Both the position numbers and the translations under genes were made by a program. 64,000 nucleotides of DNA from Thuidium tamariscinum (Eukaryota; Streptophyta; Bryopsida; Hypnales; Thuidiaceae): NCBI GenBank assembly GCA_947034885.2, contig OX344754.2, forward strand, positions 24,735,369 to 24,799,368, read 5' to 3'. The notes below the pieces were generated by a model, which saw only the letters and a program-made list of their open reading frames with translations, was not told the DNA's origin and searched no databases. Position 1 is the first letter of the stretch; every line of letters begins with the position of its first letter. This document shows, in pieces, positions 3,939 through 34,148 of the stretch.

Positions 3939-3968
3939 CACTACAAAAAAAGAGGGGTAAAAATGACT
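3939..3968 (+). repeat. Left TIR of the 30-kb CACTA element
   Basis: Begins CACTACAAAAAAAGAGGGGT and continues to AAATGACT at 3968. It differs from the inverted right end only at TIR positions 13 and 22. The preceding TCT (3936-3938) is the target-site duplication. Confidence 0.93.
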
Positions 3969-4299
3969 CCAAAGAATGACTGCTTGTCCGGTTTTACTAG
4001 AAAATGACTGCAGATTCTATAATTGCACCAAATTTGCACTGTCCAATGGTTAAAGTCATTTTTCTGTCATTTTGCACGACTCGCAGATGAAGTAATGATG
4101 AAGTGCAACATTCACTACAACTATTCATTGAAAAATGACATTGACAATACAAGGGGGAATAGGGGGTATCTAATATGGATGCTAAAGTCATTAACAACTA
4201 CTTGGTGTTATTAACTGTGACTGCGCATCACTATTGCACGACTCCAAAATGACTTAAGCGACTTCAAAATGACTTAAATGACTCCAAAAAGCCAAATTC

Positions 4300-5110
4300 A
4301 GATTTTTTTAATACAAAGGACGGGCAGGGCAGTTTCTTGACATGGGCTTTAGTTATTCTTGCGTGACTATAATGCAACTGCACATCACTATTGTATGACT
4401 CAAAAATGACTTAAGTGTCTCTTTTAAAGCCAAGTACAGATTTTCTATATATAAAATGGATAGGGCAATTTGCTGACGTGGACTTTAGTCATTCTTATGT
4501 GACTACAATGCAACTGCACATCACTACTACATGACTCCAAAATGACTTAAGTGTCCCTTTTAAAGCTAAGTGAATATTTTCTATATAAAAAATGGATAGG
4601 TCAATTTGATGACATGGACTTGAGTCATTTTTGTACAACTACAATGTGACTGCACATTACTACTACGTGACTCCAAAATGACTTAAGTGTCCCTTTTAAA
4701 GCTAAGTGAATATTTTCTATATAAAAAATGGATAGGGCAATTTGATGACGTGGATTTTAGTCATTTTTGTGTGACTACAATGCGACTGCACATTTCTTCT
4801 ACGTGACTTCCAAATGACTCAAGTGTCCTTTGTAAAGCTAAGTGAAGATTTTTTATATAAAGATGGATAGGACAATTTGCTAATGTGAACTTTAGTCATT
4901 CTTGTGTGACTATAATGCAATTGCACATCATTGCTACGTGATTCCAAAATGACTTAAATATTCCTTTTATAGCTTAGTCAAGATTTTTATGTAGAAAAGA
5001 TGGATAAGACAATTTGTTGATATGGACTTTAGTCGCCCTTGTGTTAGTGCAATGCAACTACACATGACTACTACGTGACTTTAAATTGACTTAAATACTT
5101 TTAAAATGTG
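4300..5110. repeat. Left subterminal tandem repeat, about 136-bp unit
   Basis: About six diverged units. The landmark CTCCAAAATGACTTAA recurs near 4398, 4533, 4670, 4806, 4941 and 5078, giving spacings of 135-138 bp. Each unit also has GACTTTAGTCATT, TGACTACAATGCAACTGCAC and a TAAAGCTAAGT block. The TGACT/AGTCA words recur on both strands, as expected of transposase-binding subterminal repeats. Confidence 0.85.
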
Positions 5111-6265
5111 CTTAATGCTAAAATGCACTAAAAAAGTACAATGATTCTTGCAATGACCCTTTGGGATTTTTCAACACTCATACGCTAATATCCTTTTAAA
5201 GCTAATAAATTATCTTACCGGATAAGCAACTCCCATATTATATGGCCCTAACTAGAATTATTTATAATACATTTTAGTCTAATCTTAAGGAACATAATTT
5301 ATTTAAATGTAGAAAATTCTTGAAGCCCTTTTAACAAAGAATCCAAAATTGTAATTACATATATGAAACTAATATTCTTCGAAGACAATAATAGCATTAA
5401 AAAAATTAATTATATGAATTTTTTTAATACACATATTATAGAACAAGATATCCAATATTTTACATTTAAAAAATTAGTTAATTTTAATTAGAAGAAATTA
5501 AATATATGAAAATTTTAAAACTATGCATAAATGTTTCAATTCTTCATATATATTGTGATTTTTTTTTAAATTGAACACAACCTAAAATTTTCTATACTTA
5601 ATTTTTAATAATTTTTTATTTTTCAAAGTCTTTGTATAATTTGATATATTTACAAAATCCATCTTTTGAGAATCTAAGTTGTTTTATTGCCAATGCCCCT
5701 TATGTATAATACAAGAATTCTGTACCTAGGGTTATCTTTTATTCTTTTCAATTTTTTAGTCCTAGTTTATTTCTTAGGAGGATCACTCTATAGAAATTTT
5801 GTATATCATATGCAAGTGATTTTTGACCCCTTATTAATTTTTTAATAAACTATAAAAATTCAACCAATAATTTTGATCTTTGATTGATAATGACTATAGA
5901 TTTCTATTGTCAAAAATTTCACTTCAAATAATATATAATATGACTTTTAAGATAGATTGAAAAATGAATTGAAATGAGTCATTATGATGTGTGTTTTAAT
6001 TCAAACAGTTATAGAAAATACAATTTCATAACCATGGCATCAATATTTAAGAAATGAGGGGTCCAAAATCTTTATAGACACTAGTAGGAGCCCCTGATTT
6101 TTTGGATGTCATAGATGAACGAACAAGTTTTTGCGAACATATGTATGAAGAGAAAATTTATGCCAATCGGTGCTCATTGAATGTGATGTTGAAATGAACG
6201 CTACGAAATCAGAGTTTTGACATGGTCATGCCGAGACTCACATCCATGCTGCAAGTAACATTTGA
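5111..6265. other. AT-rich DNA, no gene recognised
   Basis: Long A and T runs, no long open frame and no recognisable repeat boundary. It lies inside the CACTA element between the subterminal repeats and a short coding-like segment. Confidence 0.5.
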
Positions 6266-6454
6266 TTTAGCAAACTCAATTTTATTGGACATCCTAGAGA
6301 ACAAGGAAGTGTACAAGGGGTCTGGGATTTTATTATCAAGCAAGGTAAGTTCTGTGCAGTTACTATACTAGGAGGTAAAATGCTGCCCAAAGGTGCAGAA
6401 GTTATTGGTGGGGCAGTTACTTTGATTTCGGGCATACAGAACTTCCATGGATGA
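6266..6454 (+). pseudogene. Short coding-like segment, family not recognised
   Basis: An open stretch of 62 codons between an in-frame TGA (6263-6265) and the TGA at 6452-6454, locally less AT-rich than its surroundings. It has no start codon in a useful place. The translation is balanced and glycine-rich and includes GSVQGVWDFIIKQGKFCAVT and LPKGAEVIGGAVTLISG, which looks like real protein rather than random AT-rich reading. I do not recognise the family. It could be one exon of a fourth captured gene, or chance. Confidence 0.35.
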
Positions 6455-9037: not shown

Positions 9038-9842
9038 TTAATCTTTTACTTTTTGTATGTTCTCAAGTTTTTGATTAAATTGTAAGTGGTTCAGCTTGTA
9101 CTCATTCAAAAATCATATCTCATACAGTTTATTCAACCTCCTAGCACCCCACTTGTATTAAGAGCTTCTCTTTTCTTCCATTGAAGCACCAAAGTTAGTA
9201 ATGTTCAAAGATTCCTTTCCTTTGCTATTAAAACACTTTGCACTATAGGGTGTTGTAACATTCATCCCCTTCAATAAAAAAATAGAATCAGTCTTGGGAT
9301 TTTGAATTATTTATATTTCAATTTAAATTGTTAAAGTTTAAATAATTAAAATTTAACAAATTAAATTTTATTTAGTGTGCATGGTTCTTCCTATATGGTA
9401 CCTTACGAGGTAAATTTGTGGTTTATGAGATAAAAATAATATTTTATGACATGGTTGTTGTTCTGCTTTTACATGGTACCTTCATGAAGACACTCACCCT
9501 CCTTGACACAGTGGACCAAAACTTTGCTGAAATGTGTACAAATCAAGCCTTTGACATCCGGTTTAATTTTATAACGAAAACACAGAAAATTTTGCTAGAA
9601 AGAACATCAATTTTCCTTTCAGTGACACTGTAATAGTTCTTGTATGTTTACTTCAACCTACTAAAACTTGAAGCCACAGATGCTCAATGTATTTTACATT
9701 GCAAACTTCGATGCAATTAAGATCTTTGCACATTGATAACATAATTTGTGCACTTGCACTAAAGTATGTGAGTGCATACATCCAACTAGTCATGCATTGG
9801 ACTATGTTCTTGCTCACCCACATCTCCAGTGACTCTTATGTA
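9038..9842. other. Unassigned AT-rich segment
   Basis: Nothing beyond a 71-codon chance frame at 9418-9633; no splice sites or repeat ends that I can support. Confidence 0.4.
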
Positions 9843-10117
9843 AGGTAGGTACACCCAAAAGCGCCACTTATTCATACTGAGCCTACTTCCTACGATTAAT
9901 GAGTTCAAATTTTTATATAGTCTTGTTGGCAAAGTGAAAGCATGTTCCAACGCACCAAAGAACGTAGGATTTAGATACTGTATGCAAAAGTTATTAACAG
10001 TCAAAGTCTGTTTTCTGAAAGTGCCATCTATAGTCTGTGAACATGACTGATTTCGGAAATGTATGTGCACTATAGATGGCGCTTTTAGGAACATGGCGCT
10101 TTTGGGTGTACCGACCT
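9843..10117. mobile_element. TA-flanked MITE, copy A
   Basis: TIRs AGGTAGGTACACCCAAAAGC and the inverse, with TA at 9841-9842 and 10118-10119. A TA target fits Tc1/mariner-type (Stowaway-like) insertion. The inside also holds a shorter inverted repeat around the GCCATCTATAGT words. A second copy, 273 bp, lies in the opposite internal orientation at 51101-51373. Confidence 0.85.
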
Positions 10118-12318
10118 TACACGCCGCCTTCTACAATGGTCTCCCTCATTGGCTCTGTCGCAAACATGGCTGGTTGCAAGCCTCACTATAAGAAACCCAT
10201 GTTTTTTTTGGTGTCAGGCCAAAAACGTAACATGTTTAAAAAAACTTTATATGTTTTATAGAACATTGGGATGTCCAGTGAATGAAGGCTACAAAAATTG
10301 GAAGATTTAATTAAATATTATAAAAAGCATGCTAAATTATTGTCACAACAAATTGGTGTTATCCAAAACAATGATGTAGTTTAAAACATGGTTGTCAACA
10401 TAAAAATGTTTTTAAAATCATCCAAAAAAACATTCATAGCCACATCATCATTGTTGGTCAAACTTAATTAAAGCAATTAACAAAATTCTAGTTTGGTCAG
10501 AGGTAAAATGACTGACCACGATAAAAAAGATGAAAACGAGTAGATGGTGTGGAAATTAGGTGACATGGCATCTGATATGGAAATTACGTGATGTGGACAT
10601 AGTATGCTGACGTGGCATGCCACATCAGCGATCATGACAGACCTATGTTACAACTTTGGATGCTTATTTAAACATCATACTAAACATAAAGATGTTTTTA
10701 AAGACATCACTGTTAGCAAAATTGTTATTTACTGTTTGCAATCATAACATCAAAGCAAATGTTAATCACTGTGCAATTCATAACATCAAAAACGATAAGC
10801 AAACCTTAGGCAAGCTAATGGAGATGTCTTCTTTGATGTAAGCATGACTATAAAATGACCATCAACAAAGGCTTTCATGTGTTGTAAACATCCATATTTT
10901 TTCTCTTTCCTTTTGTTGAGCATATTCTTTACTTGATAAAAACATTTTTTCCTTATAATTCCAATTCCAATAGTTTTTGGTAAAATAAGAATTTTTTTAA
11001 TTTATTCATGACATTATTTCAATTAAATATTGTCATTAGGGAATCTAGGACACTTATATTCTTTATATTATTGTAGTTGAGTATTTCTCTTATTACAAGA
11101 TTAGAAAATCCCATTTTCTCATTTTTTTTTTACTACAATTGTATACAAGGACTAAAAAAGAATAACAACACAATTTGTATTTTTTGCACTATATGTTACA
11201 ATTGCATATATTTCTTGCAATAATAAGAACACCCATATTTTTTAAAATCGAAGGTAAGTATTTTTTTTCAATATAAGATTGGAAGATTTCAATTTCTTTG
11301 TTTGTTACAATAGAAATTCTCTTCAAATGAATAAGCACACAATTCATATTCTTTTCACTATTTGAAGTTTAATATTGTCTCTTTACAAATCTAAACATCC
11401 ATGTTTTTATTATTATTAATTACATTTGAGTATTAGTAACACCTACCTTTTTTTATATGAAATAACTTTAGTTTATAAGATTAAAATCATGTATGCCTTT
11501 TTCAAAATTTCAATACATAAAGTAATTAATTTCTTCAAGTGATTACAGTAACACCCACATTTTTTTCTTTTTTAAGGCAATTCCTAGGACAATTGACCTT
11601 TTCTGTTAGAAGAATGAGGAGATCCAAATAATCTTTTCATTATTGAAGTTTGGCTTTTCCTTTAGAAAATACCAACATTCATTTCTTTTTCTTTGTTACA
11701 ATTGGATATATCTTTACAAGACTAAGACACACTTTCTTTGTAATGAGGGTGGAATAGATTTTTTCTACAAAAAATTAAGACTTGCAATATATTTTAGTCT
11801 CACAATTGATGAAATTTACCTTACTAAAATTATAACATTTTATATTTCTTCCTTCTCTTAGATTTGACAATTTACAACTTGGGGGGGCGGGGGGAAGCAT
11901 TGTTGAAAAACATAGGAACAATGTGTAATAAAATATAGGGTCTAATATATTCATTGCACGTAAAATTTGTAAAAAATTATATTTATTATAGGGTGCTTTA
12001 AAATTGTGAAACATGCATGATTATATAGACTATAGAGTTAGACATAATACAATAAATTATGTAAAGAGTACATATAAAATAGTATATACAAATGTGAGTA
12101 ACTAAAAAAAGGGTTATAGATTACCATATGAAGCTTTAAATGTATTCATGAATGGGGTGATTTGTCATAAAAATTTTCCCATATTCTAAATGGAGTACTT
12201 CATTGCAAGGTACATATGGTATATGCAAAAAATACTTTAAAATTTTGTATCTAAGGGAAAAAAAATGGGGTGTAATCTTGAAAAGATTGGGGTCTATAGG
12301 AAAATAATGAGGTATAAT
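10118..12318. other. AT-rich DNA, no gene recognised
   Basis: A short GC-richer patch follows the MITE (10120-10200), and repeats of ACGTGG/TGACGTGGCATGCCACA type occur near 10560-10630. From 10900 on it is poly-T/poly-A rich; a G-run occurs at about 11880-11895. Open frames here are short and unconvincing. Confidence 0.45.
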
Positions 12319-13089
12319 CCCTAGAGAACCAAGGCCTTATTTTTTTGTTAAAAAATTAAAAAAAATTCTATTTCTATAGCAAAGGGTAAAAAAAATTTGA
12401 AAACTATTTTTTCTACAAATCTAACCATAGTATTTTTAGTATGAGAGCATGTGGAATAAATTTCAAAATTTTGAACAACATAGACTGTAAGATTTTTTTG
12501 TTAAAGTAGAAAAAACCGGTTTTTTAGCACATTGTAAGGTTTAATTTTTTTGACTTTAAGCCTTCTTAACTTTATTTTTTTTCACTATAGAGTTTTGAGC
12601 TTTAAATCTTTGAAATGTATAATTGAGTTCAGACTCTAGGGGAAAAAACTATACAGAAAAGCTTAATTTTTATTCTTTAAAAAAGTATTATGTAGAAGTA
12701 GGTATGAAATGGAAGGAAAAGTTAAATAATATCTTGAAGGTGGAAATACAATGCACTAATTCTAATGGTGGAATTGTTCTAGGAAAAAAATAAACCATCT
12801 GGCAATTTTTTTTAAAATATTAAAAATTGCATTTGAAATTGAATCCTACAAGTTATTTTTCTTTAAACTCAAATTTTCAAAATTTATTTTGTTGCCTGAT
12901 TTCCCTTATTTTGAGTGATTTTGAATATAACTTTTATTCCTAAGCATCAATTGAAAAAATTATATTCCCATGAAGACAATAAACATTTCTATCTTCAAAT
13001 TTTAAAAAAGGAAATCAGGATAAAATTTGAACTTGTAGGTACCTGCCCAAAATTCCATTTGTTCCTCAAAGGAAAATGGTTTTTCGGGG
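12319..13089. mobile_element. TTAA-family element, copy 2 (degraded ends)
   Basis: Starts CCCTAGAGAACCAAGGCC and ends TTTTTCGGGG, flanked by TAAT/ATAA instead of TTAA. The start is like the copies at 34468 and 40602 (inverse), including the later CTAACCATAG word, and the end (ACCTGCCCAAAAT before the terminus) is like the copy 47447-48370. Confidence 0.65.
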
Positions 13090-13407
13090 ATAAGTAATAT
13101 ATTATATATTAAAATGCCCACCAAAAAAATTATAATTACCAATACGATGTAATTAATTAATCACCAAAATTTATCTTTAATTTAAAAAATACTATGTCTT
13201 TTCATGAATTTTGCAAGGTAAATAGTCCCCTTTTAAATAAGTCATTACTATAGGTGTATGCAAAATATAAGAGAGAGTGCCACTTCTTAGGACTACATAA
13301 GTCTTCAATAAGAATAAACGAGACGTGTGGGCCCTTGAGAATCACCTAAAAAACAATAAAACCCAAGGAGATCACTAACATATTTCTATTGTAACCACAT
13401 GCTTTAA

Positions 13408-14642: not shown

Positions 14643-14880
14643 CATCCAACAACTACTCCATCTCCATTATCCGTAGCACCTGGTCTAAATAACCCACCTC
14701 TAGTTGGATTATTACTAATATAATCATGAAAAGCTAATTTTTTTGGAATTTGAGACCAAGCTTTAGATAAACTAAGATTTTCATTTTTACTAGAATGAAT
14801 TCTTTGATCTATTTCTCGTTGAAAAATCCTTGATCCCATTGATAATGAGTAGGACCAAATAATTCGATTGGAGTTGTAGC
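14643..14880 (-). pseudogene. psbB: Plastid-derived psbB (CP47) fragment in nuclear DNA (NUPT)
   Basis: On the minus strand the translation runs through [18 protein letters not shown], then, after a 1-nt loss in a T run, [36 protein letters not shown] and [14 protein letters not shown]. This is the stretch of the photosystem II CP47 protein before its conserved GDGIAVGWLGH motif. Only about 80 of roughly 508 residues are present, with a frameshift and many substitutions ([15 protein letters not shown] for FRAGAMDNGDGIAVG), so it is an old nonfunctional plastid transfer. It lies between two TTAA-flanked elements inside the CACTA element. Confidence 0.88.
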
Positions 14881-14968
14881 AAAACAACATGAAAATTATT
14901 AAATTTCAAAACAATTATGAATTTAAAATTTAAAATTTATTTTGACTTTAACCGTAGCAAATTATTAA

Positions 14969-15906: not shown

Positions 15907-18900
15907 TTAATGACCAATTTCATGAAATTCCAGTAAATAATATTGTTTTAGAAAGATACTAGCAAAAATGTGAAAAAAAATCAGAAAAGGATTGAGACTT
16001 TAAGGGTAAATGTGCCTTGCCTTGGTGGTCAAATCCGTCCCAGTTATCTAGGAGCCTCAGAAATGTTAAGCTTATGTGACTTATGTCAATGGCGTCGAAG
16101 GAGTAGATGTCCCTCCATGCAGCGTGCCTGGCTGAACCGATACCTGCGTGGATAGCTTTCAGGCTAGACGGGAGCTAATGCACACTTCAGTCTTCGTCTA
16201 CGATGGGATTCAATATTCTCTGCGGCGCAATTCCGCCTTCCTGGACTCCGGGTACATTGCGCTCACTCGCTGGCTTCCCGCTGCACTGCTCTGGTGGAGC
16301 TAAGTTTCATCGGATTTGATCTCCAATTGAGGTCAGTTCGCTTTGCAATCTTTGTAGCAATGGAGTGCAAGCCTGTGAGTCCCTCTTACCGGTAGAGTTG
16401 GCGCTTTGTTTTGTTTTGTTCTTGTAAGCTTATTCCCCGACCAATTCTTCGATGCGTAGGTTTTGCACGTCACAGCGACGTTTGTCACAGGGATTGCACA
16501 AAATCTCGCAGCGAATTGACAAGAAATCGGCACTTTATTTCAAGAACCCTAATCCCTCACCTCTGATCCAAATTCGGCACGTTTGAATTTTTCTCTCCGG
16601 AGAGTCTCCAAAATTTGAGAAGTTAATAGGGTTGGCGTTACTTTTGCAAAGGTGGATTTGTCCAGGAGGGGGAGAGAAGGCAGTGCTGATTCCAACAATG
16701 TAGTCGCTTTGTGCGACAGTTTCTGTTGCGCCGTGTAGCAATGTGAAGATGACAGAAGCCACTTTGTCTTCCGTGCAATGCAGCTCCTCTCTCCTTATTT
16801 ATGTTAAGCTCTGAGGAAAGAATCCTATTCTCCTTTGTTTTACAGCTTTCCTCTCTTTGGTGTTTCTACTGTAAATCTTTAAATGGTGATCCATGCTGAG
16901 AAGCAGCGTGAGCTGTTATGTAGTCAATATCAGCGAAGAACCAAGGCAAGCTTGTGGAACCAGTCAAGGAACTTGATGTAGCTCTGACTCAGGTATTGAA
17001 CTACTTGAACGGTGTGTCATAGTGTATTGTAATCTTTTTCGTCTTCATTTTGTTCCATCGGATTTGTGATGTGCTAGCAGCATGTTTAGATACGGTGGAT
17101 AGCTTGGTATGTTTCACAGATTCTGGTGATGTGCTGAAATTGTTCCATTGTTTTGCAGGCAACAAAAAGTAGTAGTGTGCCCCAATTTGGGATTCAACAT
17201 TTGAACTCAATGCGAGGAAATGTACGGATGGAGTGACGCGAGAGATGCATTAGGGTAGAAGCGCCAAATCTGTCGAGGTACAATTTGTTGGCTGTGGAGG
17301 CTGGAAGCTATGCATCATCGTTTGCTACCATAGAAGCTAAGCTACCCTGAGGAAGTGGGAACCCTAACTTGGTGTAGCTGTCTTACTTGAAAAGCGAGCC
17401 TCTGACCTGCATGTTGTGAGAGAGTGAGAGGAAGGAGGAAAGGAAATGAGGTAGTGAAGTTTGCAGGTTGGCTTTAAAAGAGTACCAAAGGGTAAGCGTA
17501 ACTTAGCAAGAACTTGCACGCGACGGACACTCCATCGAGCTCCACGCTTGTTAATCCTTCCCTTCCCAGATTCATTGCCATTCCACTTGCACTTCTTGTC
17601 CCTCAGTCGCCATCTTCTCCTCGTACTCATCACCCAGGCACAAGCGCCATCGCAACTGCGGTTTCACCTTTGCCAACATTCCTCATTGAGGTTCACTCGT
17701 ACGTCTTTGAATTCCCTTGTGTCAGATTCCATTTAGACGTACCTTGTAAATTTGCTTTGTACAATTTCTCCCACGCGTAAATCGTGATGGACTTTGGTTC
17801 TGGCGGGGGCTATTTCTAGAGGCAGTGGTTCTTCGGATTTGGTCTAGATTTTTGGAAGTGGTGAAGTTGGAGAGGAGTGAGTAGTGGAGTGTTGAAATTT
17901 CTGTCATTGGGTTTGAGAGGTTTAGTTGGGATTCAATTTGGAATTTGAACGGTTTCAGGGTGAGAGGGAGGATCGCACATGCTCTGCTCGAAACAGTATT
18001 TCTTGCTGTTTCGATTTTGTAGTACTGAGAAAGTCGATTGAAATGTGTGGAACAGGTTTTGATCTTGGGGAATTGCAAATTTGGGATTCCTCTGTCCAAT
18101 CAAATCTCGGGGTGAGTCGCTGTGACCTACAATTGATTGTTTTCCAGTGGGAATAATTTCTGCTAGAAGCGTGACGTTTTTCGGTGATGTAGACTATCAC
18201 TGACTTGTAAGCGCCGTGATTCTCTTTGAGTAGCAGCTGAGCCCCAAGGTGTAGAGCATGACAATCATCTCATACTCTGCATTTGGAGATTGTAGGCAGC
18301 AGATTCACAGGTGGTTTTTCCTGCTTATCGTATTCGTCTCTCGTCGAAAAACCCTATACTGCCTGCGCGCGTTCCTATATTCTCCAAGTTTTTCCAGTAT
18401 CATCTAGTTTCTAGCTGCTTTGGTCGTGAGAATGCTCTGAAATTTAATACGGAGATGTTAGCATGGATTTTGTGACTCTTCAAACTCCATGAAGTTGCAG
18501 TTAGTCTAGCTTGCTGATTGGTCCCATGAAAAGACCAAACCATGCATGAGAGAGGGATTCAAGCAAACCGGAGCATCACTCACCGGAGAAAGAAGGAACA
18601 CAGGAAAATTGAATCGACGCTGCATCATCCCCGATCCAACAGTATTCCAAATCCAAGACCGATTCTCATACGGCGCGAATTCCGCCTGCGGCAAATTGTA
18701 CGTCATCGGATTCCCCAATCTCGAAACCCTCGCTGCTTCCATTTGCGACTAGCACCCCAACCACGTTTTTATCATCATCGAAACGATTCACAAATAGCAC
18801 CGTATTGAATAGATTGTTGCCCATTTGAGCAACTGCTGACTAGTTCTCTTGTTTACCACTGCATTGCATCATAAGGTGGGGGTCGGAGGTTGTGGCGTTT

Positions 18901-19981: not shown

Positions 19982-22251
19982 GTACGCAATGAAGGGTTGC
20001 TGGCCTTGCAAAGAAGGCCTGGCGTGTGACGAGGAAGCTGCAGAAGCTGCATATGAGTTAGCGTGGGAGGAGTTACACGCAGGGCCCTGGCAAAGTGTGT
20101 CTTTTGTTTGGCGTGATGCCTTTTCTCTCTCCTGCTTGTCCTTGGCGTCGTGCCATCACCGAGCCAACCGGCCTGTAGAGTCTCTGAAAGTTCTGGATCT
20201 TGGAGTGATCATGGGGACCCACGATTTCGTAAGGAAATTGACACTTACCTCAGCAGCATTGGGCCGGCGATAGGCACAGCCAAGGGCCTTGGCACGTTAA
20301 ATGGTGCTAATCAAGGGAGTCATCAGCAAGTAGCATCGCCGGATGTGCTTCTGCGAAAGAAGAAAGAAGGGCAAGTGCTACATGAGGTGTAGGCAAGTGC
20401 TAAACTTCTTTTATTTTACCCATGTTGTGCACTTTCTTGATGGCGTTTTAATGTGGTTTGCTTTCTTGTATTTAGGATGAAGTTAGACCAGGGGCGGAGC
20501 TAGTTCCTATCTCAATTAGGAGGCTTCAAATTTGTTGTTGGAGCATTTTAATGCTATTGACTGTCAAATTTGAATGCTATCATATTCCTAGTCGTGCCTC
20601 GTGTGAAACCGCGTATGTGTATTCCGAATATGTGGAAGGCACAATTTTCTCTTTCATATCATCATATCTCTGTTTATCATTTATCTGGAATAGTAAGAAT
20701 TTCTGGCACTGTTCGTGAATTTTCACATTTCATTAGCATTCTTGATGACCTGTCGTAGTGAGAGGTGTAAGACACTGATAGGAAAACGTTCTGATAATGT
20801 CAGGAGCTGAATGCTCTACCGGCAGGCTCTTTGCGGGGCATTTTGGTAGATAAAAGAAGCTGCCCTTCACTGGAAAGTTTTCTTCGTGATTCTTTTCTGC
20901 CTGGAGTACCAGTAGTAATCTCAAATTCGATGAATCACTGGCCTGCTATGAGAAAGTGGAATGACATCACCTATCTTCAAAAGATCGCTGGGCATCGCAC
21001 CGTTCCGGTAGAGGTAAGTTCTGACTATTTTCTCCCTCCTCATGTCTTCACGATCTATTTACTAGACGCAATTTTTTGTGGGGGATCTCACCGGATGACG
21101 GAACAAGATGAATTTGATTACGCCAAAGTCTTTCTCTCTATGCTCTCTTCCCCTTTTAAATAATCGGCGTCCTGCTTGATGGATTTTTTTGGGCCTTCGG
21201 TGACTTCTTCAGAAATCATGGCCGATGAAAGACCGTGTGTTCCCTTTGATTGATAGTTTTGGAGTAAGCAGTCTATAATTTGTGGTATTTCCCTCTGGGC
21301 TTAGTAATTTGAACTTGTGGCAATCAGGGCAGGTGGGAGAACACTATCTTGCTTCAGATTGGAAGCAGGAGCTGATGACTCTTTCCCAATTTTTAGAGAG
21401 ATCTCTCGGTCATTCTGATGCTCAAGCCACCAGTCGGCCGTATCTTGCCCAGCACCCACTTTTTGAGCAGGTATGAAGTGTGCAAGAGATATTATGTCTG
21501 GTCTCCTCTTTCGTGTGACATTGTTTTTGTAAACTCTTATACACTAGTAGAAAATTGTGCGGATTTCAACACAAGCAACCCAACATTCTTGTTTCCTGTA
21601 ACGCGAAAACATCAAGTTCAACACAAAATTTGCATTGAACTTGATGTTTTTGCGTTATAGGAAACAAGAATGTTGGGTTGCTTGTGTTGACATCCGCACA
21701 GTTTTCTACTAGTGATATGATGTAATCATGGTGTTTTGGATTAGATGTTTGGTAGCAGGGTGGATTGCTGGTGCAATTTGTTGTTGCGATTGTAAGAAGT
21801 TATCTGGTTTATCAACCCAGATTCCAGAGCTGCAAGCAGACATAGTTATCCCAGACTATTGTTCTGTCGGAGGTGGTGACCTTCAATCCATAAACGCCTG
21901 GTTGGGCCCTGCTGGAACGATAACTCCTTTACATCATGACCCCCACCACAATCTTCTAGCACAGGTATGAATTGAATGCACTGGACACTCTTGCTTTTCA
22001 AATTAAGTCAGCACGTGGCACGCATCTGGGAGCTGTTTAAAATTTTGGTCGCATGAGAGTAATTTGAGAACCTGCTTTAGAAAGAAGTCTTCTTTTTATG
22101 TTTACCTTCATCTGCACTTGTGAACAAATTAGTTGATTGCATCCTTGTGGTCCTCCAGGTGGTAGGTCGGAAGTATGTACGACTATATTCACCAGAAACC
22201 TCTCATAGACTTTATCCGTACACTGAACAGATGCTTTGCAACTTTCCTGAG
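19982..22251 (+). pseudogene. JMJD5: JMJD5/JMJ30-type JmjC protein gene, truncated and frameshifted
   Basis: JMJD5 (KDM8; plant JMJ30) is a nuclear Fe(II)/2-oxoglutarate-dependent JmjC oxygenase. Exons: 19982-20386, 20804-21013, 21333-21470, 21821-21964 and 22159 to about 22251. The first gives AAEAAYELAWEELHAGPW and VWRDAFSLSCL, the family's helical N-terminal part. The second has PVVISNSMNHWPAMRKW and GHRTVPVE, the third VGEHYLASDWKQELMTL, the fourth [14 protein letters not shown] with the iron-binding His (21932-21934) and Asp (21938-21940), the fifth VVGRKYVRLYSPE. The first exon needs a frame change at about 20214 (one G short in a G run) and probably another near 20030. After the fifth exon a stop follows, and the C-terminal part with the second iron-binding His and WWHYV-type motif is absent; thimet oligopeptidase sequence begins within about 30 bp. 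Hence a captured, dead fragment. Confidence 0.9.
21542..21714. mobile_element. Palindromic CACTA-type MITE in a JMJD5 intron
   Basis: 173 bp, almost a perfect hairpin: ends CACTAGTAGAAAA and the inverse, arms of about 80 bp, flanked by ATA (21539-21541) and ATA (21715-21717). The 3-bp duplication and CACTA terminus fit the CACTA superfamily. The terminal sequence is the same as that of the 1.8-kb element at 32001-33783, which may belong to the same family. It lies between the third and fourth recognised exons and spares both splice sites. Confidence 0.9.
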
Positions 22252-22282
22252 AATCTTGCGAGATTATGAGGCGTTTCTACAG

Positions 22283-23315
22283 GTGAACTATGAGAATGTG
22301 ATTGCACCATTGGCAATTCTAGAGTCAGAGGAGTTTGCTTTGGTTCAAAGTTGTGTATTTCCTGCCCTGGTGTCGACTTCGAAGGAAGTTCGAGATGCCA
22401 GTTCTAAAGCGGAGAAGAGAATTGATGCCTACAATGTAAAGTGCAGGTAGTTATGTATTTCAATGTTAGTTTGCAGTCTAATGTGTCTTATGTGCTGTAT
22501 GAAACTCTTGATGTGTTTTATTGGACGCACGTGAAGCCGTGTAGTGGGATGTCTTGCGCGAAGATGTATACCGTGTTGTGAAGGCCTTCGCTGAGAAGGC
22601 CGATCCTTTGAGCCCTCAAGCCCAGCGATTTGTGGACCATTTGGTGAGTCCCTTCCTTTCACGTTTTCCCGTAATTAGGGTGGCTACTACGTTTTATAGT
22701 AGAGTATACTATCTACGTCACTATAAGCAATTTAACATACTCAGGACTGTGATTCTTTGGAGGTCACTATGGAGCTGTAGAGAGATACCTTTGGGTACTA
22801 GAAACAATCTGTTGAGATCGATTTTTTTGCTCACTGTGTACGAATTCAACATGAGTCAGTACAAGAGACGAGGTCAGTTCCCTAATATCGTGTTCTTCAT
22901 AACCCGTTCGGTTTGGAATTAGTTGTGCGTAAGGTTTTCCAAGAACAACAACATAAAGTAGAGGCTCCATCAGCCATACAGTACATTTGAGGCTCCATTG
23001 ACCGTACATGTGAACTTTGATTTGTGCGAAGTGTGAATGGAACCTCTTCCTTGTATTGTGATTGAAAACTTTACATTATATACGATCTTTACTCCTCACT
23101 AGTGGATCCGATCTTATGCATCTCCTTTGCTGCAGGTCAGAGATTACGAGAGATTGGGTTTGAACTTATCTGCAGACATTAGGAGGAAGGTCGAGTTTTT
23201 GAAGACCACCATTGGCGAGCTGTGCATCGAATTTCAGCAGAATATGAATGAAGAGAATCGTCGCCTCTACTTCACTGAAAGTGATCTAGCAGGATTACCT
23301 GCGGACTTCATTAAG
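22283..23315 (+). pseudogene. Thimet oligopeptidase (M3 metallopeptidase), internal fragment
   Basis: Three in-phase exons: 22283-22435 (VNYENVIAPLAILESEEFAL and FPALVSTSKEVRDASSKAEK), 22545-22643 (LREDVYRVVKAF, LSPQAQRFVDHL) and 23136-23315 (VRDYERLGLNLSADIRRKVE, LCIEFQQNMNEENRRL, LAGLPADFIK). This is the N-terminal helical region of M3A oligopeptidases, which degrade short peptides in cytosol and organelles. The 144 codons are uninterrupted, but the family is about 700 residues: the extreme N-terminus and the whole catalytic part with the HEXXH zinc motif are missing. It directly follows the truncated JMJD5 piece and directly precedes RecQ on the same strand, so it is an internal slice joined between two other genes. 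Confidence 0.9.
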
Positions 23316-25515
23316 GTCATACTTCTGTAGGAATTTAATCTTGCCTGGGACTTCTGTGAGACTTGAAAATTGCAAGCACAGAGTCAGTGTTGTAAGATCA
23401 AGTATTTTATAGATAATGATTCTTGTGTGGCTCGTCTTTGTAGCCTGTTCTGCGTTCACGTGGGGTTTCTAAAGCCTTTTTCTTTCTTCACGAACTTGCT
23501 CGTGATAGCGAGGGCAAGCTATCACGAAAATATTGTCGTCGGAAATCAGTCCAAAAGTATAAGAAAACAACGCTGGAGGATGGCGAGGTTCATATGGCTA
23601 TGGCGGAAGGTGACAGCAATGTGGACACAAGCGTTGGGCCCAGCAAGCGGAAATCGGTGAAGTGGAATCAAGCGGGCATGGATCCCGAAGGTCCGAAGTC
23701 CACTTCGTTGTGGGTTGACGAAGGTTGGTATGACAAGCGTGTCGTCAGTGTGGAGAACACGAAGGACACTTCCCCTGTGGAGGACTTCTCCCCTGCGCTG
23801 TCTATCTCTCCGGAGGAGCTAAAGAATTTGAAGGAGGCCGCTCTTGGTGACCCCTGCGAAGCGAATTTGTTGACAGTCTTGGAGCCTGTGTTTGGGTACA
23901 AGGCTTTTCGCAGTGGGCAGTTGGTTGCTATTCAGCGTGTGCTGGCGATGGAGTCCACTTTGCTGGTGCTTCCCACTGGGGCAGGGAAGTCTCTCACCTA
24001 TCAGGTTCGTGCTCTTCTCGCCTTGTCGGATCTGAAACCCGAAACTCTCGGAGCCTCATCATCTCATCTCTTGCGCTTGAGGGAGAGGATACTATGTAAG
24101 GCAAGCATTTTAATGTTCTCAGGAGAGTGGTTATTGGGAGATCGATGTAGCGCCGTGGAGAGATCAGTATGCGTACAAGACTGAAATCTGTGTAGATCAA
24201 ACATTTGTTTTTGTGAATGAATTTCTTATGCAATTTCGAAGGAGGTTCTAGACCAGTGCAAGTGCCAGTTGACAACCCCGTTTCTGTTGAAAGATCATTG
24301 GCCGTACACATTAGCTAAGTCAATTGAAGGTCGGCTGTCTGAATAGATGAGTAGCGGTTGGTGAGATGTGAGAAAGTCTCTCTTGGTTCTAGTATCGTCT
24401 ACCTCACTGTAAATACGTCTTTTGGTAAGCAGCTCCCAGCGTATGTTCTACCGGGACTCACTTTGGTGATTAGTCCATTGGTGGCGTTCATGGCGGACCA
24501 GCTGCAACACCTTCCTCCGTTGTTGCCTGGAGGTCTTATCAATAGTTCTCAGGTATGGGCTTTTTTATTGTATGGCTAAAACCGCTGAAGGATCAAGAAT
24601 TCTTGATTTGAATATGCATTGCTTTGAACATTGTTTCGCTGAATACCAAGCAATTGTGGGGATACTGATCAGGTGTTCAATCTGATTGCAAAGCACTAGT
24701 GAGAGCACTGAAGTAATGAGTCGACTTCTTTCTTGTCAAATTAAGGTTCGTTTTATGGCTATCTTTATGACCAACTGCACCATGTACATTGTCATGATTC
24801 TTGGAATGCTGGTGTGAGTTTGAATCTCTTGCCTGCATTTACTGGAGTTTGTATTAGTCTCTCATCTATGTCACACAATGACAGTGTATAGGAGTTTTTG
24901 GGCTAGCCCTTATGGGAAGGGCTGTCACAACCTCTGTCTGTGAATTTGTGCCAAGCATGAAGCTCACCAAAACCATTGAATACTGATTAGCGTGTATTAA
25001 CAGTATTCCTTTGTTTTCTTGCATTGAAGGTGCTATTCATATCGCCAGAGCGTTTGTTCAGCGGTAGTTTTCTGTCTGCTCTGGACTCTCTCCCTGAAAT
25101 CTATCTGGCAGTGGTGGATGAGGCTCACTGCCTTTCCGAATGGTGAAACATTTGCCTTCCGAATCCAGTTGTGTGCACAGTTAGTGATTATGAGCCTCAC
25201 GCTCCTTAGAAGTTGTGTTATCACTAGTCATAGACTGACTCACCTGCTTTTGTCCTTCACTATGTCTGCTTTCAATGTGAGCTGACCCTTGTTTCATCTC
25301 TCCAGGTCACACAACTTTCGACCTTCATATAACAGTCTTGGCAACATACTGAAGAAGCGTTTGCTTGTCCCGTGCGTTCTAGCCTTGACGGCAACAGCTA
25401 CCAAAGAGACAGAGTGTTCCATCATCAAAGCCCTTTCTATTCCTTCATCAGGAATTGCGCAAGCATCTGCTGTTCGCCAAAATCTTCATCTATCTGTCTC
25501 GCGACCTTCACATCG

Positions 25516-25623
25516 GCAAGTTATATTAAAATCATTTTTCTGATGCAAACTGTATGATAGTGCGAATCCAGAAAGATTTTCGGAATTGAATTGCTGCATC
25601 TGATGATCTGTTCCTCTTCACAG
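25516..25623 (+). other. GC-AG intron in the RecQ gene
   Basis: Only a GCAAGT donor (25516 on) joined to the CAG acceptor at 25621-25623 keeps frame, giving SRPSHRRRDLLALL across the junction. The nearby GT at 25520 would break the frame. GCAAGT is the usual sequence of natural GC donors, so this is likely original rather than decay, unlike the GCAGCC donor at 26576. Confidence 0.65.
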
Positions 25624-28338
25624 GCGGAGGGATCTACTTGCACTGCTTCGGTCTAGTCCGTTTTCAGAAGTCCAAAGCATCATCATCTACTGCACATATC
25701 AGGTATTAAGAGGTTCACATGTCCATGTACGACTTGAATTTCATATTTTTTGATTCTTAGACTGGGTCATTCCTCTTGTCCCTTAATGAGGTACCTGTTC
25801 ATGCAGGTTGAAGCTGATGATATAAGCAGATATTTGGAGGAGAAAACGATTGCTGCTAAGGTTTGCCTGCCGTCCCAAGCATGTTGTCTTTGTGTCAAGA
25901 GTGAAGTATAGCGTTCCCATGGTTAGCCAATGCTACTGGTGAAGGCATTATTAGTGCTTCTTCTAATTTTCAATCACATTTTTAATTGTTCCTGCAGAGC
26001 TATCATATTGGTAGACCGTCCTCTGAACGAACTCGTGTTTACCAACTCTTCTGCAGTAACAAACTGCGTGTGGTAAGTTAGTTCTTCCTAACCCTTTGCT
26101 TTTCTTCGAATCTGGATATTCTCGTTCTTGGGACTTCATTCTCGACATTATTGAGCAGGGATAAGAAGACTTGCATGTACGTTTATTAAGAACTTCCACG
26201 AACTTCCGTTTTATGAGGTCTGTTGTTCTGATGTGCAGGTTGTTGCCACTGTTGCTTTTGGAATGGGCTTGGATAAAAGGAACATTGGTTCGGTAATTTA
26301 ACATTTTGAACTTCCGCTGAAGGCTTTCTCATGCAACTGTGGTCTCCTCGACATTGTATTGTTGCAATAATCTGATCCTTGCTTTGGGATAGTTAGGTTG
26401 TAATTTTTTTACTGGACGTTGAAGAGCAGCAGATGATCAGTGGGCACAGGCATTGTTGAAGGGGATAATTATATTTAACCTAGAACTTTGAAACCAACTG
26501 AGTTCTAGTTTTGAACTTCCCATTCTGCAGGTAAGTCACTACAACATGCCTAGAAGTCTGGAGCATTATGTACAGGCAGCCTAGTTCATCCCTGCGGTTG
26601 CAATTCTCTTACAAATAACGCTCTTTTCTTCATGGGGAGATATAAGTTTATGACGTTGAATACTATGCAGGAAACGTGACGTGCAGGTCGTGATGGCAAA
26701 CCTGCCTTCTGCCACGTTTTTCTGGACGATACAGACTATTTGAAACTCCGCAGTCTTGCACACAGGTATGGCAACTAGGTGGCATAGACTTTTGGTATAT
26801 CATTTGGTATATTTCCTCTCTTAAATATGAAAGAGATAACTCTACAATCTAAATACGACTGGTGTTTGTATGTCAAATTGGTTAGATGAGGCTTGATCTA
26901 TCTCGAAGGCTATGGTAGCCTTGCCGTTGCTCATCATTTTCAAACCTTTATTTCAGCTGACATTTCGGCTATTCTGCAGCGACGGTGCGGACACCTTCGC
27001 TGTGAACAAGTTTCTTTGTCGAGTGTTTCAAAGTCCACCAGATACATCAAAGTCTATGACCTCAATCAATGTTGAACAAACAGCTATTGAATTGGATCTC
27101 AAAGAAGAGGTAAAGATATAGCTTCAAACATGCTGTCCCAACTTTAGAGTGAGTTAATCTTTCCTGAAGCAGTGATCTTTGCCTCGATCGTATCTGAAAT
27201 CTTGGATGTACAGGTCAGGGCTACAATTTTGTCGTTCATGGAAGTCGGAAAGGTGCAGTACGTGCATGTGCATTCCAAGTTAAAAGCAACATGAACTTAA
27301 CGTTCTACAAAGTGAGTGTTTGTGTTTGTTTAGTCTTTTAACTCTTTCAGAATTATGCAATTATTCACTTTGTATTCTTAAGGTAGACCTTTGCTGAGTT
27401 GGGGGGTCTCGTGTCTCAGACTAAAGCTGCTTTTCTTGCAAAACATAGTGCTCTGGTGGCGGCAATCGTCCTAAGGTGACTCCTCTCTCCTTACATAGAT
27501 TTCACCCATTTTATTGGATTCTGAAGTTATTTGGTTCTCATTTGATTGTTCTCGGACAAGATCATGTTATTTCTGTCTTCTTTGTGTCATGTTATGAGGG
27601 CCTGCAGTTCTTTGTATTTTATCAGTTATTTTCAGCATCTGGGATTTCAGGCCGTTGTTGATTTGAAAGCTGGACCAGTTTAGTTTGTCCAGTTTTTGCA
27701 CCCCTACTGGATGTACCTTCTATCAGGTGGCCAAGCTTGATGCAATGTATACTGCAGCAGCAGCTGCTGCGTCTCGTCGTGGCGAAGAGACGAGCAGTAA
27801 TTCTGAGTGTACTGCCCAGCAACTATCTCTGCAAAGTAGTATCAGTACATACTTCAACAGATGTGAAGATAAACCGACAACCCCAGCTGCACCTAGCATT
27901 GTGGAGTCCACAAGGTAGAGTCCCTATTTCAGGTCCTCTCTACCTTGGTTTCTTATTTAACAATTATCTTCTCTGCCCTACAACACTTTCCTAGGATTAT
28001 GAAGCTCTGTACAACTCTTACAAAGCACTAGTGGTACGGATATTACGATGTTGCAGCTCTTTCTTGAGGGCAGATATCAAGGTATGGTTACTACTGAATC
28101 TTTCACCAAAGCTGTTATGATTTTTGGAAGTTTGTGGCTGTAGTATCAGTTATTTATTTTTCTGTGTGTAATATTCATGGAATTGCTAAACCTATTCAAA
28201 GAACTGATGTTGATACGCTCCACTACTGAGCAGGTCCTCTCAAAATCCCACCAGAATGCGAGTTTCACTGGCAGAGTGGTCGCCCGAATATTGCATGGTC
28301 TGTGGAGCCCTACATATCCTTACGCATCTTGGTGCAAG

Positions 28339-29701: not shown

Positions 29702-32000
29702 CGGGGAAAAAAACGTATAGCACATGTCTATGAGGTATCGATGATTTTCAAGAACATGACCCAAGGAAAAGCAAATGGTTTTTTTAATGTTCAAGTCCTC
29801 ATTACACGTGTTCAGCAATGTACAATAGTACTAGGAAAATATTGAATGACAAGGTCAATCTATTTTTGTGGTTGTTGACACTCACATCTTCCAGAATGCA
29901 CTTATAGGATCAACTAATTATTCAAAACATTACTCTAATGCGCTACTCATCGTGCAACACATGTACCCTATTGTCAAACTGTACATGGCGAGTTCCATAT
30001 TCTCTTTGTGACCATGTTAAGAAGAATGTGCAAAAAATTCTCCACTCTACTGCTATGTTCTGTAGCACACATAGAACTCCATACTAGTTTGTGCAGAATC
30101 AGTGGCACTGTTGCAAATGTTGTCTTATTAATCTTCAAAACATAATTAAGTATGAACGCACCAAACACTCAGCAGGCCTCTAAAAACATGCAATCAAACA
30201 TAGCGCCTCGTTACTTCATCATGGAATTTGTCATCTTAAACACTGAAAATCTGTTGATATTGATAGCTTCAGTGTTGCTGTGAATGTCACAGACCACGTC
30301 TCTTTGTTTTCCAGGACGTTGAGTTCAATATGAACTGCAATGTTCAACTGAAGTGAACTGAAACAATCTCATTTGCCACATCAACGTCGGTCTGGTCAGG
30401 AAAAAAATAAAAAATAAAAAAAAATAACTTGGTGATGACGTGGCGCTGACGTGGCGCTGACGTGGCTTGTTTTTTTACCCCTTTTTACCCTCAAAATTGT
30501 TGTGATTTCTGTGATGTTCCTCACTAAACGCAACATGTTTTTCCTAATTCTGTTGTGTTTTTCCCTTGTCTTTTTTGACGGATTTTCCTAGACATTCATA
30601 GTTTACATGCCTGATGTTGTGATTCACATCCACCCACGTCTCAGGGCTTGTCACAAAAAACAAGTCTTTCTTCTAGTGAGAGCTTTGGCTCACAATATAA
30701 ATACATAGAGTGCCTCCCCCCCTTGAGGTTTATCTTTTTCATTTCTTTATAAAATAATTTTCTTAATAGAATATTTTCTTTTTTCTTTTTTTTCTTGAAA
30801 TGATGCATTGTTAGTGGCCTTTGTCTTTGATGTTGTATAATATCTTCTTCCTTAAAGTCCAATTGTATGATTTGCTTAATTCCTATTGACATGCCACCAA
30901 TACTTCTAAAAATGTGTGCTATTGTTGTTGCACTAGTTTTGAACACTTTAGGGGTTTCAATAAACATACACTAAAGTATTTAAGAAGAAATCAAGAGCAA
31001 TTGTTAAGTCCCATTTTCCCTTAATGCAAATGACAACATCACCACTCTGATTCTACTATAGAATGACTTTGTGTGACTACCAAACAACTTCCTATGACTG
31101 CCAAACGACTACTTAGAAGTTTGATTTGGACTAATGCACAACTACTCTACTACTACATACCTACTCTATTACTACTCTAGAGCCTTAACCCTAAACCCTT
31201 TCCAAATTGTTTAACAAATTTGTCTATAACTTTTGATTTGAAGCTCAAAATCTGAAATGGATTTTTGGAGATGAAAATGAAAATGATCTTTCAACTTTCA
31301 TTAGTTCAAATTTTTTTGAAAAAAGTTAATGTACTATGCCTCAATGAGGTTTGAAATATTATTTGTAATACAATTTCTGCGTTTTCTATATATCCCACAA
31401 GTTTTGTCTTGCCAACTACTATCCTACTTCTATGAAAGGCTTATCATTTCTTCTATTCATACTCACACACTAAGTGGCAATAAATAAGCCTTGGTGTATG
31501 GTGTATGGTGTGTGGCATTTGGTGAATTGTGTTTGGCATATGGTATATTGTATATGGTGCATTGTGTATTGCATATTTATTGTGTACGGTGTATAATTGT
31601 GAAATTTTGAGTACATTCATATATGATTGTAGAATGACTATTGCTCATATAATTGTTAATACATTTTTCTTACACACATTGCTACAAATAAAAAATAACT
31701 TTCAACATCCTTAAAGAGTAATTTAAACCCTAACTCTACATTACTCAAAAATGACTATGAAATGACTTGCTATGTGGCAGTCCATCTTAAAATTCATCAC
31801 AACTTCTGAATGACTATAAAATGACTTCACAGTGACTTACATGTGACTCTGACGTGGCTGTCCACGTTAGCAATACTTGGACTATATTATAACTACAAAA
31901 TGACTGCATGATGACTTCATAATGACTTACACATGACTCTGACGTCACCAACCTACATACAATATCACAACTGCAAAATGACTACATAATGACTTCACAA

Positions 32001-33783
32001 CACTAGTAGAAAAAAACAGTGACCAAATTAACAAAACTCAACACAAAAGTGTTGATTTTTTTTGTTGATTTGGACGTATTAATTTGGGTACTTTTCAACA
32101 CAAAAGTGTTGATTTTTTAACAAAAAAATGTCAAATTTTAACAAAAAAGTGTTCATTTCTAACAAAAAAGTGTTGATTTTTTTTGTTAATAAGGATATTT
32201 TTTTAAAATATATTTTAAAAAATTCATAAACAAATTCAACCTCTAGGGAGGTGCCACGTGGCGACCTATCCATTTGCCACGTGGCAGCTATTGAGGAAAT
32301 GAGGCCACCGGGGTTTGAACCCGCAACCTCGTGGTTGGAGGCCAAGGCTCTTGTCAAGGCACCAAGCACTTAAGATGTGTGATTGTTAACGAATTAGAAA
32401 TGTATTTAGATAGTTCTTTCGGGTTTTTTTCAATTCTTTTTTAAAGTCAGTAGACTTTAGAGTCGATTCAGACCTAGTAAAAGAACTTTTTTGGAAAAAC
32501 TTTGAACTAAAGAAAGTTGAGAAATAAAGTCCAACAATTTTTTTGAGATTTGGATCTTCCAATCAAAAGTTATATACAAAAATCAGAGAGAGGTTTGAAA
32601 TTTTTTAAAATAAATGTTCATTTCCACCCCTCTCTAATTTTTGTCCATAACTTTTGATTGGAAGAATTAAATCTCAAAAAAATTATTGGAGGTGAAAGAA
32701 GACTTTATTTCTCAACTTTATTTATTTCAAAATTTTTCCAAAAAAGTTTTTTTACTAGGTCTGAATCGCCCCTAAAGTCTGCTGACTTTTCAAAAATCCA
32801 ATTTGTGATGATTTAATTTAAAAAGAAATCTACATTGTAAAATTAAGACTCCAAAGGCTTATAAAGAAACAAAAGGATTAAAATTGTACTTATATTTGAA
32901 TTTGGAGTTGAGACATATAATTTTAATTATAATATTCTTTAACGTTTTTCCCATCAAAAGTCAATAGACTTTAGTGGCGATTTTGTTCTAGTAGATAAAC
33001 TTTTCAAAAAAACCTTTGAACCAATGAAAGTTGTAAGATGAAGATATCTTTCACCTGCAACAATCCAATTAAGATTTAGATCTTTCAATTAAAAGGCATG
33101 GACAAAAATCAGAGAAGGTGTTTAAAAATGTGAAAAAGATGTCCATTTCTACTCTTCTCTGATTTTTATTCATTACTTTTGATTGGAATATCTAAATCTC
33201 AAAAAAATTGTTTGAGGTGAAAGATATATCAATTCTACAACTTTCATTAGTCCAAAATTTATTGAAAAAATCAATTTTACAAAAAAGTTTCTTAACATTT
33301 TATAACAGTGCCTCTGAAATTTATTCATAACTTTTGATTGAATACTCCAAATTGCAAACGGTTTTTTGGAGATGAAAGATTGTTTGATTCCCCAACTTTT
33401 ATGTGTTCAAAGTTTTTTGAAAAAAGTTCTTTTTCTATGACAAAATGACCTCTAAAGTCTACTGATTTTACACAATACCGAATAGTGAATGATGAATTTA
33501 AAAAAACAAACAAGGTATTGTGCATAGAACACTAACTATGATGATTCAAACATTTTTCAAATAAAAAAAACTAATTTGAGACACATATATGTGAAAATGA
33601 ACAAAAAAGTGTTGATTTTTTTGTTACTTTTGAATTACAGTATCCAAATCAACAAAAAAAAGTGTTGATTTTGACAATGTGTACTAGAATCAACAAAAAA
33701 ATGTGAAAATAGACAATGTAGTATCCACTTCAACGAAAAATTGTTGATGTTTTGTTAATTTGGTCACTGTTTTTCTAGTAGTG
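32001..33783. mobile_element. Nested 1.8-kb CACTA-like element
   Basis: Ends CACTAGTAGAAAAAAACAGT and the inverse of CACTACTAGAAAAACAGTGA; a 3-bp duplication CAA flanks it (31998-32000 and 33784-33786). Both subterminal regions carry copies of AACAAAAAAGTGTTGATTTT. The middle has two imperfect palindromes centred near 32615 and 33135 built on related sequence (GTCAGTAGACTTTAG, CATAACTTTTGATTGGAA). No transposase frame. It sits in the right subterminal repeats of the 30-kb element and joins them cleanly when removed. Confidence 0.88.
32225..32375 (-). mobile_element. tRNA-derived SINE
   Basis: On the minus strand an A-box-like TTGGTGCCTTGACAAG is followed by the B box GGTTCAAACCC with the flanking AGGTTGCGG and GGTGGCC, then a tRNA-unrelated tail (CCACGTGGCAAATGG) leading into A/T-rich sequence. 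The anticodon arm does not fold convincingly, so this is a SINE rather than a working tRNA gene. It lies inside the nested CACTA-like element. Confidence 0.7.
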
Positions 33784-34118
33784 CAATGACTTACATGTGA
33801 CTCTGACGTGGATGTCCACGTCAACAATGCTTGGACTATATCACGACTGCAAAATGACTGCATAATTGGATGACGTAGACATCTATGTTAGCAAAATTTC
33901 TTTAAAAATGGGCAGCTGCCCAATCTTTTCTAAAAATTTGCTTGTCCACCTCATCGTCCATGTAGACCCCCTCATCCATTTTCCATCCAAGTCTAAAATG
34001 GATGGTGATAATAAGATTGCAATCATTTAAAGAATGACTTGTCCACAATGACTCCAGAGCCTCGAGTCGCGACGCAGTCATTTTTGTCTGGAATGACTGG
34101 TTTTGAGTCATAGATCGC

Positions 34119-34148
34119 AGTCATTTATACCCCTCCTTTTTTGTAGTG
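34119..34148 (-). repeat. Right TIR of the 30-kb CACTA element
   Basis: On the minus strand it begins CACTACAAAAAAGGAGGGGT, the inverse partner of 3939-3968. TCT follows at 34149-34151, then AATTGCA, which continues the intron sequence seen uninterrupted in the right gene copy. Confidence 0.93.

Follow-up and report, generated by a model that had tools for sequence, protein, structure and literature searches.

How can an insertion with the ends of a CACTA transposon extend over 30,210 bp, hold pieces of three host genes and contain no visible transposase? The question is raised by a stretch of 64,000 nucleotides of the moss Thuidium tamariscinum (C6:24735369-24799368, hereafter the window). 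A preliminary description took the insertion for a single, unusually large CACTA carrier, of whose length later nested insertions accounted for only a part. Comparison within the genome (363 Mb in 19 contigs, C1 to C11 together making up about 362.9 Mb) leads to a different answer on both points, as the ends belong to a non-autonomous element of 3.8 kb and the cargo to a second CACTA element of 24.6 kb, nested within the first and bounded by its own target site duplication (TSD), AGA. Nested insertions make up most of the 30,210 bp (24,600 + 1,783 bp plus their 3-bp duplications), leaving about 3.82 kb (30,210 - 24,603 - 1,786) as the outer element's own DNA. The same nested pair is found at a second, unrelated site and has thus been mobilised on at least one occasion as a unit of 28.2 kb.

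Two CACTA elements, one inside the other

The outer terminal inverted repeats (TIRs), CACTACAAAAAAAGAGGGGTAAAAATGACT and CACTACAAAAAAGGAGGGGTATAAATGACT, match as inverted repeats at 28 of 30 bases, as first described, and the TCT duplication reported at the two borders is present (Table 1). The window consists of two inverted copies of a receptor-kinase-like region, a large duplication whose pieces are about 74-91% identical, and only one of the two arms carries the composite. When the insertion is left out, the joined flanks align to the inverted paralog carrying a single TCT, which confirms the uninserted site proposed at 58894, and the paralogy extends to both sides of it (89.5% for 15-3938 against 62818-58894, 84.5% for 34166-34476 against 58872-58558). 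The ends, the TSD and the empty site thus uphold the original view of one insertion of CACTA type. The subterminal ATGACT repeats were likewise borne out, AAATGACT occurring nine times in the two terminal 400-bp ends, against 0.35 expected from the middle. With CACTA TIRs, a 3-bp TSD and subterminal repeats, the outer element is a member of the CACTA (En/Spm) superfamily.

A genome search for further copies, as the preliminary description had advised, recovered 17 paired outer copies, the four other composites among them. The queries were the terminal 262 bp of the left end (best 40 scored of 287 candidates) and the terminal 363 bp of the right end (best 40 scored of 494), and 16 of the 17 copies into which left and right matches pair were read at least partly (C1:25132412-25137803 excepted; C4:2250214 minus its left 730 bases). 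Five other copies, four on C6 and one on C8, align out to both outer ends, the four C6 composites sharing one further flanking base with the window beyond them, and a perfect 3-bp TSD borders 11 of the 12 distinct outer insertions of which both flanks were read. As five other copies stop at the same two ends and 11 insertions have perfect TSDs, these ends cannot be attributed to chance. Two long copies, C4:2250214-2270743 (20.5 kb) and C4:11263981-11288741 (24.8 kb), were considered as autonomous members and rejected, being ordinary outer elements split by unrelated nested DNA. The nested DNA within C4:2250014-2270013 and C4:11263781-11289100 amounts to about 16-21 kb with open frames of up to 746 and 336 amino acids; from these frames alone, it looks like hAT and Mutator-like element protein genes.

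That the inner block is a separate insertion is seen from outer copies which do not contain it. The C8 copy is 3,824 bp long, does not have 6079-30678 and carries a single AGA at the join, and in 10 of the 11 block-less copies the two arms meet with a 3-base overlap, the remaining one (C2:34764752) being deleted there. The block itself has the ends CACTAG...CTAGTG and the TSD AGA, and by its CACTA TIR and 3-bp TSD it also belongs to the CACTA (En/Spm) superfamily. Helitrons lack a TSD and have 5' TC and 3' CTRR termini; both a Helitron and a long terminal repeat (LTR) retrotransposon were rejected for the inner block in view of its TSDs and CACTA ends and the absence of a terminal direct repeat pair in the self-comparison. 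A nested LTR retrotransposon was also considered as the source of the GC-rich part at 16-28 kb and rejected, since terminal direct repeats are missing and much of this part matches host genes. The 1,783-bp and 173-bp inserts are later arrivals.

Table 1. Positions, strands and particulars of the features discussed (window coordinates)
Feature	Position	Strand	Particulars
Left TSD (TCT) of outer element	3936-3938
Left arm of outer 3.8-kb non-autonomous CACTA	3939-6078	+	TIR 3939-3968; 136-bp tandem array 4326-5094; ATGACT subterminal repeats
Left TSD (AGA) of inner element	6076-6078
Inner nested giant Pack-CACTA, 24,600 bp	6079-30678	+	CACTAGTAGG...CTTCTAGTG
Older nested multi-copy element	10184-13318		begins CACTATAAGAAACC; lacks a visible matching right end, possibly truncated; shared with TOP+RecQ relatives
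Plastid psbB (CP47)-like fragment	14645-14905	-	PF00421, 3.1e-16
Match elsewhere, 79%	17156-18257		C1:32150499-32151630, outside family spans
Match elsewhere, 99%	18512-18794		C3:38996726-38997007, outside family spans
JMJ30/KDM8-like captured gene fragment	18879-22243	+	introns kept; likely donor C5:6034546-6037707
Palindromic CACTA miniature inverted-repeat transposable element (MITE), 173 bp	21542-21714		TSD ATA; absent from other four composites
Filler, 26 bp	22244-22269		JMJ30/TOP join
Thimet oligopeptidase/neurolysin-like (M3) captured fragment (TOP)	22270-23520	+	introns kept; likely donor C2:32822589-32823846
Filler, 10 bp	23521-23530		TOP/RecQ join
RecQ helicase captured gene fragment	23531-28000	+	likely donor C3:17836775-17841889
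Right TSD (AGA) of inner element	30679-30681
Right arm of outer element	30679-34148	+	split by 32001-33783
Nested CACTA-ended insert, 1,783 bp	32001-33783		TSD CAA; absent from other four composites
Right TSD (TCT) of outer element	34149-34151
Empty paralogous site, single TCT	58894-58896		AGA on + strand
Inverted paralogous segments	15-3938 / 62818-58894 and 34166-42955 / 58872-54389	opposite orientation	self-comparison

The composite at two sites

The four other composites, each of 28.2 kb, lie on C6 and match the window out to both ends, save that 21542-21714 and 32001-33783 are missing from them. All have the TSD CGT, differ from one another by 0.10-0.15% inside the element, and lie in flanks (1.8-2 kb read on each side) which are 99.6-99.95% identical among the four and none of which is shared with the window. 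Because the flanks are common to all of them, the four represent one insertion that was later duplicated together with its surroundings, and five local transpositions of the 28-kb unit were rejected for the same reason. The CGT left flank matches C1:34614750-34616751 and C1:52202521-52204531 (88%) and the right flank C1:34613575-34614752 and C1:52204529-52205713 (91-92%), and at both C1 loci the flank matches overlap by exactly 3 bases (C1:34614750-34614752 and C1:52204529-52204531), as for an empty site; both empty sites are derived from match coordinates and not from the sequence letters there. The right flank carries a Transposase_21 stretch (4.4e-54, 183 bits), present in all four CGT flanks, which places the insertion in or beside a transposase-bearing CACTA element.

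The same inner junctions are therefore found at two unrelated sites, each with its own TSD, and it is from this that movement of the nested pair as a unit follows. The preliminary claim that all 30 kb had moved together is thus supported by a second independent site, where the copies are without the two late inserts. In a comparison of 14 rows, from which the tandem array was excluded, the outer arms of the window and of the CGT copies cluster (support 0.995), with 0.61-0.67% divergence between them and 1.28-1.53% from the next closest copy. At the 34 fixed differences between the arms, the C8 copy agrees in 23 cases with the window, in 10 with the CGT copies and in one with neither. At the Arabidopsis rate of about 7e-9 mutations per site per year, a divergence of 0.3% would correspond to some two hundred thousand years.

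Side observations were made around both sites. At C6:25.05-25.71 Mb, over about 0.65 Mb, there are at least four copies of the segment that bears the composite, one of them oriented opposite to the other three, with elements as close as given above and flanks 0.05-0.4% apart; this repetition is either a young segmental duplication or an effect of the assembly. The host site in the window lies between kinase-like exons, as read from translations, with one piece at 3365-3595 and kinase pieces from 35351 onward; the stretch 36382-36834 scores just under the cut-off for PF07714 (22.1 of 23.1 bits) and well under that for PF00069 (21.1 of 31.7 bits). The two receptor-kinase-like copies differ at 35351-35641 (left, carrying the insertion) versus 57360-57665 (right), a difference that may reflect loss of the ATP-binding stretch from the left copy. 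A 72-bp unit is also present in two perfect tandem copies at 44656-44801.

Cargo, donors and the inner family

The three gene pieces of the preliminary description are confirmed, at unequal levels of similarity. The JMJ30/KDM8-like piece matches PF24472 (1.3e-26) and JMJD5 (2.4e-13), and the RecQ piece resembles RECQL4 (4.4e-9 and 1e-8), its Pfam DEAD match (0.0012) staying below the cut-off. TOP is recognised through likeness to solved structures only (3.7e-10, with a second, weaker piece at 0.0028) and has no such Pfam hit. The likely donors are 93-97% identical to the cargo, the homology ends at the bases given in Table 1, and the donor sequence runs on past the capture boundary at all four boundaries fetched. 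For RecQ, C11:5927732 was displaced as the likelier donor by the C3 locus, the match of which is longer; as the C3 and C11 loci share sequence past the capture boundary, the idea that the RecQ copy at C3:17.84 belongs to the inner family was also dropped. Carrying host gene fragments with identifiable donors elsewhere in the genome, the inner element classes as a Pack-CACTA. The retained introns and the 10- and 26-bp filler at the joins suggest capture by gap repair with template switching. To the left of JMJ30, a mosaic at 16134-18794 contains six further fragments with 74-99% matches elsewhere, for which no donors are claimed. A MITE-like element of about 277 bp with inverted ends occurs in two copies (86%), at 9841-10119 inside the inner element and at 51099-51375 outside it.

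The inner family was traced by its left end (best 40 scored of 64 candidates) and its right end (42 rows, best 40 scored of 63 candidates). Left-end matches starting at base 1 number 25, and 20 of them pair with a facing right end, namely the five composites and 15 others; among the matches listed, none faces C11:8081995, C3:13099782, C2:92628, C1:47361945 or C1:23450492. The 15 relatives, compared through their ends, measure 12,909 to 52,477 bp from end to end, spans which may include later nested DNA. All of them start CACTAGTAGGAGCCCC and 14 have a perfect 3-bp TSD, C2:12609784 being counted after a G-to-A change of its last base. The five widest (28.7, 30.1, 31.5, 39.0 and 52.5 kb) are the most diverged, and all have perfect TSDs. 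The copy at C1:31431201-31455652 contains the same three-gene cargo at 96-99% identity, has the TSD GTA and lies near no outer end among the outer-end matches listed, from which it follows that the inner element also moves alone.

The relatives differ in their cargo, which was surveyed in the best 40 scored of 352 candidates, and the statements of this paragraph hold for these. JMJ30, TOP and RecQ occur together in the window, the four C6 copies and the C1 copy just described; TOP and RecQ occur in C4:153827 (from exactly 22270), C4:279723 and C2:12609784 (with a deletion); RecQ begins at the exact boundary 23531 in C11:766918 and is partial in C5:19996827 and C2:22195884. The remaining eight of the 15 relatives have no listed match to any of these three genes. 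This distribution suggests a stepwise capture on one side, with RecQ taken up before TOP and TOP before JMJ30. The opposite direction, in which an ancestor had all three genes and the relatives shed them, is in our view unlikely. Internal deletions are evident in C2:12609784, C5:19996827 and C2:22195884, the series rests on this limited sample, and C11:766918 is the single relative with boundary-exact RecQ and no TOP, all of which would suit a history of loss. Such loss would, however, need to halt exactly at the joins, at 23531 in C11:766918 and at 22270 in C4:153827.

Mobility, alternative histories and known systems

The absence of a visible transposase, as first reported, is confirmed in the 30 stop-free stretches of the composite that were scanned (239 of at least 45 amino acids exist), the longest being the 246-amino-acid RecQ stretch and no other exceeding 125. 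A query with the Transposase_21 protein of the CGT flank recovered all four CGT flanks but, at E values up to 1, gave no match to the window or to any other outer copy compared. With no TNP2 transposase (PF02992) detected in these stretches or by this query, the window composite does not class as an autonomous CACTA element. Potential sources exist for the mobilisation in trans by a related autonomous element that is expected of a Pack-CACTA, since Transposase_21 loci that exceed the cut-off number at least 150 in the genome (627 candidates, of which 150 were scored); by their coordinates, none of these 150 falls within the window, a composite or one of the spans of the 15 relatives.

We regard it as highly probable that a 3.8-kb outer CACTA was invaded once by a 24.4-kb Pack-CACTA and that both later moved together. 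According to this account, the Pack-CACTA, a member of another family with no detected transposase, would have inserted into the non-autonomous 3.8-kb element; a CACTA transposase encoded at some other locus would later have cut at the outer ends, which would have carried both as the 28.2-kb unit. One landing site would be that between the kinase exons of the receptor-kinase-like gene, and the other that beside the Transposase_21 gene of another CACTA-type element, which duplication would then have multiplied, surroundings included, to four copies or more. The inner family would have gathered its host fragments successively (RecQ, thimet oligopeptidase and JMJ30, plus plastid and other DNA), presumably by gap repair that was interrupted and switched templates. 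The ends, the TSDs, the empty sites, the nesting, the two composite sites, the family and the likely donors form the observed part of this history.

Several points weigh against it. The inner TIRs are only about 10 bp long and clear subterminal repeats are missing (no 8-mer is strongly repeated in the terminal 400 bp, CCACGTCA occurring three times). A perfect TSD is lacking in the outer copy C4:11263981 (AAA/ATA) and in the inner relative C4:153827, which has ggt/tgg, a shifted 4-bp TGGT repeat. Mobilisation of the outer ends would depend on a putative partner, a TNP2-type transposase acting in trans. The list of 150 Transposase_21 loci missed the clear 183-bit locus in the CGT flank; it was abandoned as proof of the relatives' non-autonomy and leaves room for a transposase in the 15 relatives. 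The most direct difficulty is the divergence between the two composite sites, as the value for the arms given above (0.84-1.07% with the array) is about twice the 0.29-0.32% of the inner block, and a cluster at 4452-4531 contains 14 of the 34 differences fixed in the arms. The higher divergence of the arms indicates that some gene conversion or unequal mutation occurred.

This unevenness would be expected if the inner block had been copied between outer copies by ectopic gene conversion or recombination instead of being carried, a history that appears distinctly improbable. It needs a 24.4-kb tract ending within the arms, and yet the arms of the two sites are mutual closest relatives among the 14 rows; both composite sites have perfect outer TSDs and empty sites; and most of the fixed differences between the sites are transitions (76 of 89), the pattern that methylated DNA would produce. 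The uneven divergence is probably due to patchy conversion of the array together with deamination of methylated cytosine. It is scarcely credible that the 30 kb are instead a single CACTA lineage in which the middle 24.6 kb are original and the short copies are internal deletion derivatives, common as such derivatives are in CACTA families. The join is identical in ten other copies, whose arms diverge by as much as about 11% in places, and shows a single 3-base overlap at the point where AGA stands twice in the long copy; the block's own CACTAG ends and the relatives' own TSDs at 14 of 15 other loci contradict this reading. A single nesting event followed by joint transposition remains the account we prefer.

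Elements of comparable type are known. In descriptions of Pack-CACTA and Pack-TYPE elements of Arabidopsis, rice and maize (PMC8903248), non-autonomous CACTA ends likewise enclose host fragments from several loci and local and tandem insertions are proposed as the way in which these are acquired, local hopping having been put forward as a capture route (PMC8903248, PMC13317346); unlike those elements as described there, the one reported here is 24 kb long, has relatives of up to 52 kb between ends, displays apparently successive cargo states and is carried by a second CACTA. Soybean Tgm-Express1 is also an intronic CACTA, carrying exons and introns of five unrelated genes, but as presented in PMC1947982 it is a single element of 5.7 kb with no nesting or series of relatives described. 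In size class and gene capture the closest parallels are grapevine Cactavine (10-25 kb; PMC2528002) and wheat CACTA elements (up to 30 kb; PMC4290129), with reports of a pentatricopeptide repeat gene piece in two copies of Cactavine-5 (PMC2528002) and of 140 capture events on wheat 3B (PMC4290129). Transposase copies are tabulated for the long families of Cactavine (PMC2528002), whereas none was detected in the present composite, a nested pair that moved together. Lettuce LsC1 elements average 6.8 kb (PMC8195511), CACTA elements with captured fragments are reported from Chenopodium (PMC8978399), and a review of giant transposons mentions enlarged CACTA elements of 16-20 kb in a red alga (PMC6431247). 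Titles and abstract openings of the literature searched gave no evident precedent for nested, co-mobilised or giant CACTA elements.

The way in which CACTA elements pick up genes, and the load that they can carry, are hard to infer from single elements. In this one genome, apparent successive cargo states can be set beside likely donors that are still present and joins that contain filler, and both positions of the composite have an empty counterpart, so that the order, side and mechanism of capture become testable by sequence comparison. Tentatively, and with more doubt than confidence, the inner family may be seen as a self-enlarging lineage with a fixed capture side and orientation, which would have taken up RecQ, TOP, JMJ30 and then smaller pieces leftward, and the members of which would form a time-ordered record of capture; giant cargoes may then regain mobility inside a short element that tolerates a several-fold load. 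The composite shows that nesting can make the cargo of a long element the freight of a short one.

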